A model generated the notes under the pieces. It was not told the DNA's origin and searched no databases. It was given only the letters and a program-made list of their open reading frames with translations. A stretch of 21,350 nt of DNA, from positions 1-21,350 of the IMG/VR virus record IMGVR_UViG_3300030329_001919; one strand, 5' to 3'. A program made the position numbers and the translations under genes. This document shows positions 7,091 through 11,675 of this stretch, piece after piece. How positions within the stretch are numbered: the stretch's first letter is position 1; each line of letters opens with the position of its first letter. This DNA comes from a virus.

Positions 7091-7201
7091 ATGCCAAGGG
7101 GAAGAGGCGGAAAAAAGCTCAGGATGAACAAAAACGTGAGTGCGAAAAAGACCAAGTCGAACAAGAAGAAGGCAAAGCGGCCCAGTCGTCGTGTGTACTA
7201 G
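7091..7201 (+). CDS. 36-aa extremely basic micro-protein
   Basis: ATG 7091 opens a 36-codon frame ending TAG 7199-7201, with AGGGGGCAGG (7080-7089) immediately upstream as SD site and the scaffold start 12 bases downstream. The product has 10 Lys and 6 Arg and no Asp or Glu (net about +16), with the order PRGRGGKKLRM, a Lys-rich middle, and RPSRRVY at the end. It fills what would otherwise be a 130-base gap in a tightly packed operon, which supports translation. A nucleic-acid- or scaffold-binding role is inferred from charge alone. It is too short for family assignment and easy for gene callers to miss. Confidence 0.65.
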   Translation: MPRGRGGKKLRMNKNVSAKKTKSNKKKAKRPSRRVY

Positions 7202-7213
7202 GAAAAGGAACTG

Positions 7214-8089
7214 ATGATGCCAGACGAGCAATTTGAGCAGGTTGAAGAGAACGTGATCCCCGAGGGGGAGCAGCTGGTTGAGGAAGAGCCTCCTGAGTTG
7301 ATGGCTGTTCCTGAACCTCAAGCTGAAGCTGAAGAGACCGTCCAGGAAGAGGCACCGATTGAACAGCAGTGGCGTAACGATCAATACGCAATTGGGAAAG
7401 CGATGGGCCTGGAACCTGAGCAGGTCCGTGCGTTTGCTGACCCCTCAGCTTTTGATGCGGTTGCAAACCAGTGGGCTGAAACCGTCCAAAAGTCCATGTC
7501 TGAGTCCCCTGAAGTGCAGCAGGAGCAGGAAGCGGCCCAGGCTGCTGCCAGTCAGCAGCAGAACCGGACAGCGTTTGAGTTTACCGACCCAAGCGACTAC
7601 GACCCTGAACTTGTTGAAATGAACAAGTTCTACAACGACAAGATCGATCACATGGAAAACACGCTGAGTGCTGTGCTGATGCACACTCAGCGGATGCAAA
7701 TGGAGGCTGCTGGCCGTGAAATGGATCTCATCCTGAACAACATGGATGAAGGTCTTTACGGTCGCGGTCGACTGAACGATCTGAGTGAAGAAAATGCCCT
7801 GAACCGCATTTCTGTGGCTGACGAAGTCGCCCGTATGGGGAAGGGGTATTTGGCTAGGGGTGAAGGTATTCCCCCAATGGATGCTTTGGTTGAGCGGGCT
7901 GCACAGTCTGTTCATGGGAAAGAAATGAGCCAAGCGGCTCTACAACGTGTCTCCGACAAGGCCAGTCAAGTCGCTCGGCAGGCCACAGCGTTACCCCAGC
8001 ACCGTGACGGAGGTCCGGAAACCGGGTATGAGGCCGCAGTCCAGGCTGCTGCCAATTGGCAAGCTGAGCACGGGATGTCCTCGTACTAG
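7214..8089 (+). CDS. Capsid scaffolding protein
   Basis: The 291-aa product lies directly before the capsid gene, where scaffolds normally sit. Scaffolds nucleate procapsid assembly inside the shell and leave or are degraded before packaging. Residues 1-50 are strongly acidic (Glu/Pro/Gln-rich); 55-130 contain Gln/Ala-rich helices; 130-180 form a long helix (NKFYNDKIDHMENTLSAVLM, then HTQRMQMEAAGREMD) likely to make coiled coils; the C-terminus is Ala/Gln-rich helical, as expected for the capsid-binding end. AAGGAA (7205-7210) serves ATG 7214 or the adjacent ATG 7217. Sequence identity among scaffolds is low, so the call rests on composition and synteny. Confidence 0.82.
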   Translation: MMPDEQFEQVEENVIPEGEQLVEEEPPELMAVPEPQAEAEETVQEEAPIEQQWRNDQYAIGKAMGLEPEQVRAFADPSAFDAVANQWAETVQKSMSESPEVQQEQEAAQAAASQQQNRTAFEFTDPSDYDPELVEMNKFYNDKIDHMENTLSAVLMHTQRMQMEAAGREMDLILNNMDEGLYGRGRLNDLSEENALNRISVADEVARMGKGYLARGEGIPPMDALVERAAQSVHGKEMSQAALQRVSDKASQVARQATALPQHRDGGPETGYEAAVQAAANWQAEHGMSSY

Positions 8090-8115: not shown

Positions 8116-9165
8116 ATGCCTTATCAGGCTGATGATTATGCAGATCTCGTAGCAACCACGTTACGCGCTCTGGAAAAGACCACGTGGGCCGACATCGTTG
8201 TGGACAACCAGAGCCACATCGCGTTGCCCAGGATTCTGAAGAAAAAAGCCGTCCAGTTCGGGTCTGGGTACGGCTATCAGTTCAATGTTCGCCTATTTTC
8301 AAATAATGCGGCGCGCAATGTGAAACTGGCAGAGACGGACAACCCGACAACTGCCGACACGCAGAAGACGGGCAACATCCCTTGGCGACACACTGAGACT
8401 CACTGGTCGCTTGAGGAGCGGGTCATTGCGATGAACCGTTCTCCCGCCCGTCTTGTCAACCTGCTCCAGACCAGTCGCGTTGACGCGATGACCGATCTGG
8501 CTGAGTTGATGGAAAGCAACTTCTGGTCGAAACCCACGAGTTCAAGCGACAGCTTGGCTCCTTACGGGGTTCCGTACTGGATCAACACCACCAGCTACTC
8601 GACCACGGGTGGCTTCAATGGTGGTCGTCCTACTGGCTTCACCGATGTTGGTGGCCTGGACCCCAACACCTACTCGCGGTGGAAGAACTGGAATGCTCAG
8701 TATGTGAACATTTCCAAGTCCGACCTCATTCGCAAGTGGCGTGAAGCTGCGACCAAAACGGAGTTCAAACCGCCTGTCGACGGCCCGTTCTCCAACATGA
8801 AGTCCAACTGGGGCTACTACACCGATTACACGGTGCTGGGAACCCTGGAGGAAGTTTTGGAATCGCAAAACGATAACCTGGGTAATGATGTCGCGAGCAA
8901 AGATGGCGCGACGATCTTCCGCAGGATTCCCGTGGAGTGGGTTCCGTACTTCGACAACAACTCCGGTACTGGTGACACGACCAACCCGATTTACGGGATC
9001 AACTGGGCCGTGTTCAAGCCGTGCTTCTTGCAGGGCGAGTACATGAAGGAGACGAAAGTGCAGCCGCATCCGTACCAGCACCGTACTATGGTGCAGTACA
9101 CAGACTGCACGATGAATTTCTGCTGCGTCGATCGTCGTCGTGGCGGGTTCGTTCTGAGTAAGTAA
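8116..9165 (+). CDS. Major capsid protein, probable HK97 fold
   Basis: The 349-aa product follows the scaffold and precedes a strong terminator, the classic arrangement for the most abundant virion protein. It starts at ATG 8116 with GGAG seven bases upstream. The N-terminal helix (YADLVATTLRALEKTTWADI) is followed by an extended arm, a spine-helix-like EERVIAMNRSPARLVNLLQ near 106-124, and a DAMTDLAELMESNFW segment common in capsid proteins of this group. The C-terminal half has beta-rich loops around the WVPYFDNN and YGINWAVFKP segments. Arg codons are almost all CGN (17 of 19), consistent with high expression. The fold is inferred from layout and position; I cannot align it. Confidence 0.88.
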   Translation: MPYQADDYADLVATTLRALEKTTWADIVVDNQSHIALPRILKKKAVQFGSGYGYQFNVRLFSNNAARNVKLAETDNPTTADTQKTGNIPWRHTETHWSLEERVIAMNRSPARLVNLLQTSRVDAMTDLAELMESNFWSKPTSSSDSLAPYGVPYWINTTSYSTTGGFNGGRPTGFTDVGGLDPNTYSRWKNWNAQYVNISKSDLIRKWREAATKTEFKPPVDGPFSNMKSNWGYYTDYTVLGTLEEVLESQNDNLGNDVASKDGATIFRRIPVEWVPYFDNNSGTGDTTNPIYGINWAVFKPCFLQGEYMKETKVQPHPYQHRTMVQYTDCTMNFCCVDRRRGGFVLSK

Positions 9166-9181: not shown

Positions 9182-9228
9182 GACCGGGGGGGGGCAATCG
9201 CTGCCACGCCCCCCCCGGTCGGTTTTTC
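9182..9228 (+). terminator. Strong intrinsic terminator after the capsid gene
   Basis: GACCGGGGGGGG (9182-9193) pairs perfectly with CCCCCCCCGGTC (9209-9220) over 12 bp with a 15-base loop, followed by GG and a TTTTT run (9223-9227). It begins 16 bases after the capsid stop codon. The next gene starts only 27 bases past the T-run with its SD site inside that gap, so downstream genes probably depend on read-through. Confidence 0.88.
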
Positions 9229-9254: not shown

Positions 9255-10088
9255 ATGACAGCTTACGTACAACACAAAGGTCCCACAGGGCCAAGTTCTG
9301 CCCAGACTCGCGGGCTTTCGAGCCGCATCTGGGGTCGTCTTCCCATCAAGAACTGGAGCGTCGGTCTCGGCGGTGGTCGATTCTTTTTTGACGACTTCAT
9401 GAACCATCCGGCACACATCAGTACCCAGACCATCGGTAACTACGCCAGTTACATCGATACTGGGGTCACGCTGAAGCAATCCGCTTCTGAGGCGACTGGT
9501 GCCATCGAGGTTGCTGGCAACGATGCCGACAATGACGAGGGCAGTATCATCAGCGGTGGCGGTGCTGGTGGCATGGTTGCGATTGATGCGACTGGTGCAG
9601 GCCGGATTGCTTTTGAATGCCGGTTCAAGAAGGCCGATGTCGACGACAACGGACTTTCGTTTTTCGTTGGTCTGTCCGAGGAAGGATCCCAGGCTGCTAA
9701 CGCCCTCACCGATGACTCTGGCGTGGTTGCTGACAAGGACTTCATTGGTTTCAACGTCCTTGCTGACGATGGAGACTCTCTCGATTTCTCTTGGAGGAAA
9801 TCGGGGCAAGCTGTCCAAACTCACGCAAACATCGCTACGATGGCCGCTGACACCTACATGAAGATGGGCTTCCTGTACGATCCGGCTCACCCGGATGACA
9901 AGAAGATCAAGATCTTCATCGATAACGGGGTTGAAGAGTCGGTCTACGTCACCAAGACGCAGATGGCTGCGGCCACCTTCCCGGATGACGAGGAACTGTG
10001 CTTGTTCCTTGCAACAAAAATGGTCAGTGGCACGACCACTGCAAGGCTTGCGCAGCTTGACTGGTGGGCTGTCGGCGTTGAAGACTAG
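9255..10088 (+). CDS. Putative lectin-like head structural/decoration protein
   Basis: The 277-aa product starts at ATG 9255 with GGAG (9244-9247) seven bases upstream. Residues 1-40 are Gly/Ser/Arg-rich and probably extended. From about 44 on, alternating beta strands dominate: RIAFECRFKKADVDDNGLSF, FIGFNVLADDGDSLDFSW and KKIKIFIDNGVEESVYV, with Asp/Asn-rich loops. This pattern looks like a concanavalin A-like jelly-roll sandwich, a fold used in capsid decoration and host-binding proteins. Its place directly behind the capsid terminator suggests a virion protein made at a lower level than capsid. The fold is a visual inference without alignment; a head fibre or adhesin is an alternative. Confidence 0.68.
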   Translation: MTAYVQHKGPTGPSSAQTRGLSSRIWGRLPIKNWSVGLGGGRFFFDDFMNHPAHISTQTIGNYASYIDTGVTLKQSASEATGAIEVAGNDADNDEGSIISGGGAGGMVAIDATGAGRIAFECRFKKADVDDNGLSFFVGLSEEGSQAANALTDDSGVVADKDFIGFNVLADDGDSLDFSWRKSGQAVQTHANIATMAADTYMKMGFLYDPAHPDDKKIKIFIDNGVEESVYVTKTQMAAATFPDDEELCLFLATKMVSGTTTARLAQLDWWAVGVED

Positions 10089-10103: not shown

Positions 10104-10136
10104 GCACCCGGGGGGGCGTTGGACTCCCCCGGGTGC
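10104..10136 (+). terminator. GC-rich hairpin without U-tract (weak terminator or mRNA 3' stabiliser)
   Basis: GCACCCGGGGG (10104-10114) pairs with CCCCCGGGTGC (10126-10136) over 11 bp around an 11-base loop, 15 bases after the preceding stop. CTTATGAAGG follows, with no T-run, so intrinsic termination would be poor. It may protect the upstream mRNA end or slow transcription between expression tiers. Confidence 0.55.
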
Positions 10137-10155
10137 CTTATGAAGGGGAATGGAA

Positions 10156-10299
10156 ATGGCCAAGAAAAAAGCTGCCAAGAAGGCTGTTGAGAAGAAGGTT
10201 GCCAAAAAGGTCGCCAAGAAGCCCGCAGCCAAGAAGGCTCCACCCGTCGTGGAAGAGGTTTGTGAACTTTCGTATGGCGGGGTGATGCACGATGGATAA
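10156..10299 (+). CDS. 47-aa lysine-rich, histone-H1-tail-like micro-protein
   Basis: ATG 10156 opens 47 codons to TAA 10297-10299, with GGGG (10144-10147) eight bases upstream; ATG 10150 is an in-frame alternative. The first 28 residues are almost only Lys, Ala and Val in a rough four-residue period (AKK, VAKK, AAKK), with 13 Lys against one Glu. A Pro-Pro hinge then leads to an acidic C-terminal tail (VVEEVCELSYGG). The Lys/Ala repeat resembles C-terminal tails of bacterial histone-like proteins and H1. Its stop lies inside the next gene (8-base overlap), supporting translation. DNA or capsid-interior binding is inferred. It is short enough to be missed by gene callers. Confidence 0.68.
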   Translation: MAKKKAAKKAVEKKVAKKVAKKPAAKKAPPVVEEVCELSYGGVMHDG

Positions 10300-10660
10300 T
10301 GTCAACCAGCAGCGAATGGAGCACATGACCGGTGGCCCGTTATCGGACCATGTGGTCAAGGCTTTCAATCGCCTGGAACGTCAGGCGTATGCTGCGAGTG
10401 CCGAGAGTCATCCGAGCGGATGGATCCTCGCGTTGTGCAATGAGATCTCGTTCCTGAGCGGACGCATTGCAGAACTTGAAAACGAGGACGAGAAGGCCGA
10501 TATGCCTGAGCATGCTGCAAACCTGCAGGTGTTTATCAAGGGTGCGACCTATCCAGCCGAGTTCCTGGGGATGACTCCAAAAGGTTATTACCGCGTTCGC
10601 CTGGATGGCGAGGATAAAGTGCGGGTTGTTGCTCCCGATAAGGTGAACATGGATGGCTGA
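10292..10660 (+). CDS. Hypothetical protein with helical N-half and small beta-barrel-like C-half
   Basis: The 122-aa product starts at ATG 10292 within the tail of the 47-aa gene; GGCGGGG (10276-10282) provides an SD site nine bases upstream. Residues 15-70 are helical and amphipathic (DHVVKAFNRLERQAYAA, then CNEISFLSGRIAELENEDEK). Residues 77-118 alternate short strands and turns (LQVFIKGATYPAEFLGM, then GYYRVRLDGEDKVRVVAP), reminiscent of small KOW/Tudor-like barrels. Its end overlaps the adaptor start by eight bases. I recognise no family. Position suggests a connector accessory or assembly factor. Confidence 0.68.
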   Translation: MDNVNQQRMEHMTGGPLSDHVVKAFNRLERQAYAASAESHPSGWILALCNEISFLSGRIAELENEDEKADMPEHAANLQVFIKGATYPAEFLGMTPKGYYRVRLDGEDKVRVVAPDKVNMDG

Positions 10661-11675
10661 GCCTACTCTATCCCTGACGTGGGATGGTATTCGGAACGAG
10701 GTGTACGAGTATCTCTTTGGCGGAAACGACGAGGGGTACACCAACGAGTCGGATACCGACCGAAAACGACTGGTTGAGAGGACCTGTGAATCTGGCTTGC
10801 GTCAGTTTTACAATCCGCCACCTGTCGAGGGCAGGACCCATGACTGGTCCTTCTTGATGCCGGTGGCGACACTCTCGCTCAACGCGGCCTATTCTACCGG
10901 GACGATCGCGGCCACCAACGGGGTGGTCACGCTTTCGGGTGGAACATGGCCTGCATGGGCGGCAGCTGGCGAGATCAACATTAGTGGCACTAACTACGCG
11001 GTCGATACCCGGGATACCACAACGCAACTGACCCTTGTCGACACATCCAGTGCCTCGGACGCGGCTTCAAGCACCTCGTACTCATTGCACCAGGACGACT
11101 ACGATCTGCCTGATGACTTTGGGAACATAATGGGTGTTATGACTTACGCTCAGGCCGACAATGCCATCCAGCCCGTGGAGATGGTGGGCGAGGGCCGGAT
11201 GCGTGAACTGAGGCAGCGTGACTATAACGTCACCTACTCCTCGGAAGACCCGTTTTACGGGGCAATTCGTCCGAAAGCGAGATCGCACACGCTAGAGGGA
11301 ACTCGCTACGAGATCATGTTTTGGCCGGATGTCACGGCAGCTGCAACGCTGTCGTATCGGTACAGGGTGCTCCCTGACAAGCCAGAAACCGGTTCACCGT
11401 CCGCTGGTGAGCGAGTTCACGGGATTACGCAGCATAGCGAAACAATTCTGTACAGTTGCCTCGCAGAAGCTGAACGCCGAATGGATGGCGAGCGAGGAAT
11501 CATGTATCAGACTTTCCAGGAATATCTGGTAACATCAGTTACACGCGACCGTCAGGACAACAAGGCGGAAGTGTACGGGTACAATGCAGACTGGTCTGAC
11601 AGGCGTGAGATGTACGGCCCGCGAAGGCTCACCCTGTTTAGTAGTGGCGTAACCTACAAGGGCCAGGGAACATAA
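10653..11675 (+). CDS. Head-tail adaptor (P22 gp4-like / podoviral adaptor type)
   Basis: The 340-aa product starts at ATG 10653 with AAGGTG (10640-10645) seven bases upstream. The N-terminus (WDGIRNEVYEYLFGG...RLVERTCESGLRQFYNPP) is the helical segment typical of phage adaptor proteins that bind below the portal. Residues about 72-142 form an inserted beta-rich module (TGTIAATNGVVTLSGGTW, then INISGTNYAVDTRD), followed by YDLPDDFGNI, which returns to the adaptor core. The C-terminal half has the MFWPDVTAAATLSYRYRVLP strand set and a final helix (ILYSCLAEAERRMDGERG). I recall this arrangement from adaptor-annotated proteins of aquatic phages. T7 gp11-like tubular protein is the main alternative. 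Confidence 0.75.
   Translation: MAEPTLSLTWDGIRNEVYEYLFGGNDEGYTNESDTDRKRLVERTCESGLRQFYNPPPVEGRTHDWSFLMPVATLSLNAAYSTGTIAATNGVVTLSGGTWPAWAAAGEINISGTNYAVDTRDTTTQLTLVDTSSASDAASSTSYSLHQDDYDLPDDFGNIMGVMTYAQADNAIQPVEMVGEGRMRELRQRDYNVTYSSEDPFYGAIRPKARSHTLEGTRYEIMFWPDVTAAATLSYRYRVLPDKPETGSPSAGERVHGITQHSETILYSCLAEAERRMDGERGIMYQTFQEYLVTSVTRDRQDNKAEVYGYNADWSDRREMYGPRRLTLFSSGVTYKGQGT

Follow-up and report, generated by a model that had tools for sequence, protein, structure and literature searches.

KA, a 47-residue lysine- and alanine-rich protein encoded among the head genes of an uncultured phage, is a genuine protein-coding frame under purifying selection. It is an accessory, lineage-restricted protein that occupies a swappable slot between the capsid and connector genes. 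We tentatively propose, giving the proposal somewhat less than an even chance, that KA binds DNA nonspecifically through its arm while its C-terminal motif fixes it to a component of the virion.

The phage and its head genes

The window, i.e., the whole stretch of DNA analyzed, is a 21,350-base phage fragment. A set of 50,697 phage records contained no match to its capsid or portal, and its terminase has only 22 to 24% identity to known phages in that set. Relatives of the capsid were found in two bacterial assemblies, labelled Deltaproteobacteria (64% identity) and Planctomycetes (40%), but the host remains unsure because both are metagenome bins. The kind of relatives found and one Tara Red Sea bin suggest that the phages are marine. 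A protein of 3301 aa from the 44-kb relative G002 (L091:3033-12938, i.e., G002:23033-32938) contains RuvA_C, ddrB-ParB, and LPD38 domains and is likely a virion-packaged polyvalent protein; giant proteins of this class are predicted to be packaged and injected (PMC5512222).

From left to right, the head genes are those for terminase, portal, accessory proteins, a 36-aa basic protein, scaffold, capsid, p277, KA, p122, and adaptor. The features discussed below are as follows.

7091..7201, + strand: 36-aa basic protein, MPRGRGGKKLRMNKNVSAKKTKSNKKKAKRPSRRVY
7214..8089, + strand: probable scaffold, from its position ahead of the capsid gene; 19 acidic residues and 1 basic residue among the first 60
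8116..9165, + strand: major head protein (capsid), phrog_9953
9182..9227, + strand: terminator-like hairpin and T run 3' of the capsid gene; comparable stems in relatives
9255..10088, + strand: p277, function unassigned; exchanged along with KA
10104..10137, + strand: G+C hairpin in the p277-KA interval; its stem is kept in phages without KA as well, and 3 of 10 pairs have changed on both sides
10143..10148, + strand: Shine-Dalgarno sequence AAGGGG serving ATG 10156
10156..10299, + strand: KA gene, 47-aa protein with a disordered Lys/Ala arm and a conserved C-terminal motif; supported by the Shine-Dalgarno sequence, synteny, in-frame repeat changes, and purifying selection
10156..10245, + strand: Lys/Ala arm, residues 1 to 30, net charge +12; repeat number differs among relatives
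10246..10296, + strand: C-terminal segment VVEEVCELSYGGVMHDG, retained in L019 without p122 overlap
10273..10291, + strand: p122 ribosome-binding region within the C-terminal codons of KA, GGCGGGGTGATG, −12.4 kcal/mol
10292..10299, + strand: overlap of KA stop and p122 start, ATGGATAA
10292..10660, + strand: p122, with predicted helices and a small Tudor/SH3-like barrel; no PDB match at E ≤ 0.001
10653..11675, + strand: head-tail adaptor, SU10_adaptor PF24175, above cut-off

An earlier note on this DNA had placed KA among head and connector genes and had it flank, together with the 36-aa basic protein, the scaffold and capsid genes. Both genes are real and both statements hold; KA lies between p277 and the p122-adaptor pair, and p277 also falls within the flanked region. 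A strongly basic protein of 30 to 40 aa precedes the scaffold gene in nearly every relative, including those without KA (counterparts of the 36-aa protein are at L003:4976-5086, L013:4918-5031, L027:4760-4867, and L037:4683-4790), and the idea of a co-inherited pair was rejected because the 36-aa protein is present in lineages lacking KA. The lineage B-type form of this protein matches phrog_33179 (function unassigned), and the window form has no match. These pre-scaffold proteins resemble KA in being tiny, Lys-rich, and part of the same structural module but differ in sequence pattern, in position, and in being present in nearly all relatives. Near the scaffold gene of a distant relative (L125, positions 292-411) there is a 39-aa pure Lys/Ala frame, MTMKKKAAKKSPKKAVKKASKKAPVAAKKKAAKKKSAKK, which overlaps another long frame.

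The hairpin upstream of KA (10104-10137) shows compensatory changes among relatives. It was rejected as a KA-specific regulator, since it is also conserved where KA is absent and takes the form of a T-run terminator in L009 and L020. An Rfam search returned nothing.

Reading frame and composition of KA

The KA protein, MAKKKAAKKAVEKKVAKKVAKKPAAKKAPPVVEEVCELSYGGVMHDG, has 47 residues followed by TAA. A mechanical open reading frame call begins at ATG 10150, but this start was rejected because AAGGGG (10143-10148) lies too near, with a gap of only 1 nt; the same sequence is 7 nt from ATG 10156, a suitable spacing that makes the latter the likely start. The earlier note had given the frame exactly (10156-10299, + strand), its choice of start is backed by this spacing, and a translation signal is present. 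The anti-Shine-Dalgarno score of the KA start (−7.9 kcal/mol) is moderate, being among the best 13% of ATG/GTG codons and on par with those of neighboring genes rather than exceptional.

KA contains 13 K, 9 A, and 7 V. Its N-terminal arm is built of AAKK and VAKK units, and the net charge is +12 for residues 1 to 30 and +8 for the whole protein. The richest 29-residue stretch holds 22 K+A, 13 of them K, whereas 60 dinucleotide shuffles of the window yielded no open stretch of that length with even 8 K; chance origin as a low-complexity frame is ruled out by the shuffles together with synteny and dN/dS. AlphaFold predicted no secondary structure, with a mean pLDDT of 56, although a prediction from nine aligned sequences of a low-complexity protein is weakly founded. 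Trypsin would reduce the arm to tiny fragments, and the predicted tryptic peptide is APPVVEEVCELSYGGVMHDG.

Conservation and selection

In relatives taken from IMG/VR, the frame is kept in synteny on about ten contigs, lying between p277 and p122 in L002, L003, L004, L006, L007, L008, L019, L041, L043, and, in part, L044. Two pairs, L006 with L041 and the window with L002, are near-identical, so that the independent lines number fewer than ten. The earlier note had named loss of the frame in relatives and lack of a translation signal as findings that would refute its reading; both were checked, and neither was observed. KA varies from 43 to 57 aa, and all gaps are whole codons, so that repeat number shifts in frame. 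In L006 (3752-4018), a one-base difference from L041 deletes the stop and lengthens the frame, which could be an assembly error or a real frameshift.

The relatives share a C-terminal motif of 12 to 13 residues, VC(E/T)LS..G.M.DG, and within the C-terminal segment Cys36, Leu38, Ser39, Gly42, Met44, Asp46, and Gly47 are invariant. The acidic, Cys-containing tail pointed out in the earlier note is real, but the Pro-Pro that it also mentioned is not conserved, as relatives have APV, APA, APD, DPA, or AAK at that place.

Over all pairs, changes at third codon positions (610) are about twice as frequent as at first and second positions (321 and 320). For the highly divergent pair of the window and L019, dN and dS are 0.21 and 1.72 overall, 0.19 and 1.85 in the arm, and 0.24 and 1.61 in the end segment; dS is near saturation and alignment of the repeats is uncertain, and only the direction of these ratios is claimed. 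Purifying selection acts on the Lys/Ala arm and the end motif alike. Within the window's own clade, dS of the end segment is low as well, as is to be expected of codons that double as the p122 ribosome site.

No relative of KA was found among isolated phages in the phage collection. tblastn with KA or the 36-aa protein gave zero matches, a result made uninformative by low-complexity filtering, and a literature search for Lys-rich virion microproteins found no match.

The end of KA serves two purposes, as a protein motif and as the ribosome site of the next gene. The p122 site (−12.4 kcal/mol) ranks among the best 0.9% of all ATG/GTG codons in the window and is the strongest anti-Shine-Dalgarno match among the gene starts scored. 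KA, p122, and the adaptor form a translational chain in which each stop overlaps the next start. In L019, where KA and p122 do not overlap, p122 begins past the KA stop and has a TAGGAGAAG of its own, yet the KA protein still ends in VCTLSYGGQMIDG. Conservation of the motif merely through the ribosome site was rejected for this reason, and its persistence shows that the motif is constrained as protein.

The barrel of p122 might have suggested a reader of Lys tails, but this was set aside, as Foldseek gives generic Tudor/chromo barrels (best E, 0.014). The p122 of other lineages is a short form, seemingly without the barrel and with a KKK tail at its end.

An exchangeable slot

Comparisons of neighboring genes indicate that p277 and KA form an exchange-prone cassette, bounded by the strong G+C hairpins on either side of p277. 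In trees, L019 falls within lineage B by capsid and adaptor (support of 96/99 and 100/99) but beside the window by p277 (93/86), and its identity to L025 is 96% for the capsid and 97% for the adaptor but 46% for p277. The window and L003 are similarly near-identical in capsid (96%) and adaptor (99.8%) but differ in p277 (70%) and KA (83%). High variability of p277 among phages with near-identical capsid and adaptor has the appearance of a recombination cassette between capsid and connector. The linkage of p277 and KA is not absolute, because L002 shares KA (99% identity) but not p277 (82%) with the window.

In L010, L015-L017, L022, L025, and L084, the slot is filled by a different small protein, consisting of a body and a K-rich C-terminal tail, e.g., ...LSGGSKKAAAKKASSKKSK; because this protein occupies the same position, the slot seems to favor a cationic tail. 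No slot gene was found in L009, L011, L013, L014, L018, L020, L027, or L029, and three of these (L009, L014, and L018) have a short p122 equivalent that itself carries KKK in its terminal tail. Since many relatives lack any such slot protein, KA is dispensable for head assembly in general.

Relationship to known Lys-rich proteins

The description of KA as H1-tail-like, given in the earlier note, is fair for its composition but does not extend to family membership. The Lys/Ala arm, predicted disorder, and in-frame repeat changes like those of Hc2 and AlgP place KA in the compositional class of Lys/Ala-rich disordered proteins, which are Lys/Ala dominated and of low complexity, with no predicted fold and variable repeats. 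By the tests run, KA belongs to no H1, HU, or Hc2 family. At 47 aa, with no Pfam hit and no predicted secondary structure, it has no winged-helix globular domain of eukaryotic linker histone H1, and it has no Pfam or PHROG match to the ∼90-aa DNA-binding fold of HU/IHF. The Hc2 profile (PF07382; gathering cut-off, 40 bits) did not hit the window KA and scored 17.0 for the L006 form and 13.6 for the L019 form. Weak matches to HU_inhibitor, DUF6465, PAF, and several PHROGs were below cut-off and compositional, and were rejected.

Hc2/HctB, the chlamydial H1-like protein, has Lys-rich repeats and a size set by repeat number (PMC2848022), as does KA, but it is a cellular chromatin protein of 165 to 237 aa. 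In AlgP/PhaF of Pseudomonas, a disordered Lys/Ala tail binds DNA and is believed to link some other body with the nucleoid, and peptides of KPAA repeats bind DNA in vitro (earlier data summarized in PMC9239181). The likeness to KA lies in the disordered tail and variable repeat number; however, the AlgP/PhaF tail consists of KPAA repeats over ∼154 aa at the C terminus, after a helical domain, whereas KA lacks both KPAA tandem repeats and an N-terminal helical domain and has a 30-aa arm at its N terminus with just a short motif behind it. The T4 internal proteins IPI to IPIII are small, head-packaged, and targeted by a peptide of ∼10 residues (PMC7697877). They serve here as an analogy for KA, a putative head protein; in T4 the peptide is N-terminal, and there is no sequence family match.

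Proposed role and alternatives

Lys/Ala tails like this one are known to bind DNA irrespective of its sequence. In our preferred but tentative reading, KA would belong with the head-completion genes as a small late protein, its cationic arm binding DNA (or another polyanion) nonspecifically and its short conserved end, the natural candidate for an anchor, docking to a virion protein, which could be p122, the adaptor, the capsid, or p277. Given the chaining of KA to p122 and the adaptor, the connector or shell would be the most likely site. KA would then tether DNA to shell or connector during packaging or retention, possibly leaving with the genome, much as AlgP/PhaF tails and T4 internal proteins work but outside both families. 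The fuller version, a free-standing H1-tail-like tether with a virion-docking peptide, carried on an exchangeable cassette and helping to hold or deliver the genome, is possible but rather unlikely in all its parts. Lys-rich disorder also fits binding to RNA, membranes, polyphosphate, or acidic proteins.

The earlier note had suggested neutralization of packaged DNA, compaction, or delivery of a nucleoid modulator with the genome. Bulk neutralization is doubtful: a genome of 44 kb or more carries ∼88,000 phosphates, of which ∼1,100 copies of KA at +8 would neutralize only 10%, and this arithmetic makes a local tether more credible than bulk neutralization or compaction. KA may compact DNA or be delivered along with the genome. 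Carriage of proteins in these virions is plausible, and delivery to the host possible, because G002 encodes the 3301-aa ddrB-ParB/LPD38 protein of an injected class (PMC5512222). The same protein lends something to the view that KA is a nucleoid modulator or counter-defense peptide, which would act in the host once injected or expressed late, but KA lies among late genes and matches no known inhibitor family (HU_inhibitor reached 12.3 bits against a cut-off of 27, in one relative), and we consider such a role quite improbable. Equally improbable is that the frame mainly brings ribosomes to the p122 start: the strong site inside KA and the stop/start overlap would suit a coupling leader, but a leader needs neither the Lys/Ala composition nor the motif, both of which persist in L019, and p122 is present without such a gene in L011, L013, and others.

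Two further alternatives are improbable to a lesser degree. As an electrostatic partner of the acidic scaffold N terminus, KA (and the 36-aa protein) would act in assembly or scaffold release and not on DNA. The 19 acidic residues at the scaffold start, similarly acidic starts in G003 and G006, and the basic gene directly 5' of the scaffold gene in nearly all relatives are in its favor, but most relatives lack KA, those examined retain an acidic scaffold, and the translational chaining of KA is to p122 rather than to the scaffold. Marginally less probable still is a surface accessory linked to p277, e.g., a cationic peptide displayed on the outside of the capsid to aid adsorption to particles or cell surfaces. 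KA does travel with p277, as in L019 and in the joint divergence of the window and L003; nevertheless, L009, L020, and L075 carry the same p277 type without KA, L002 separates the two, and joint exchange may reflect adjacency alone.

Tailed phages are usually thought to package naked DNA. If the tether model is true, tailed phages can use histone-tail-like microproteins at their shell or connector. In any case, KA represents an unannotated family of small proteins that is absent from Pfam and PHROGs and for which the evidence of selection is clear.
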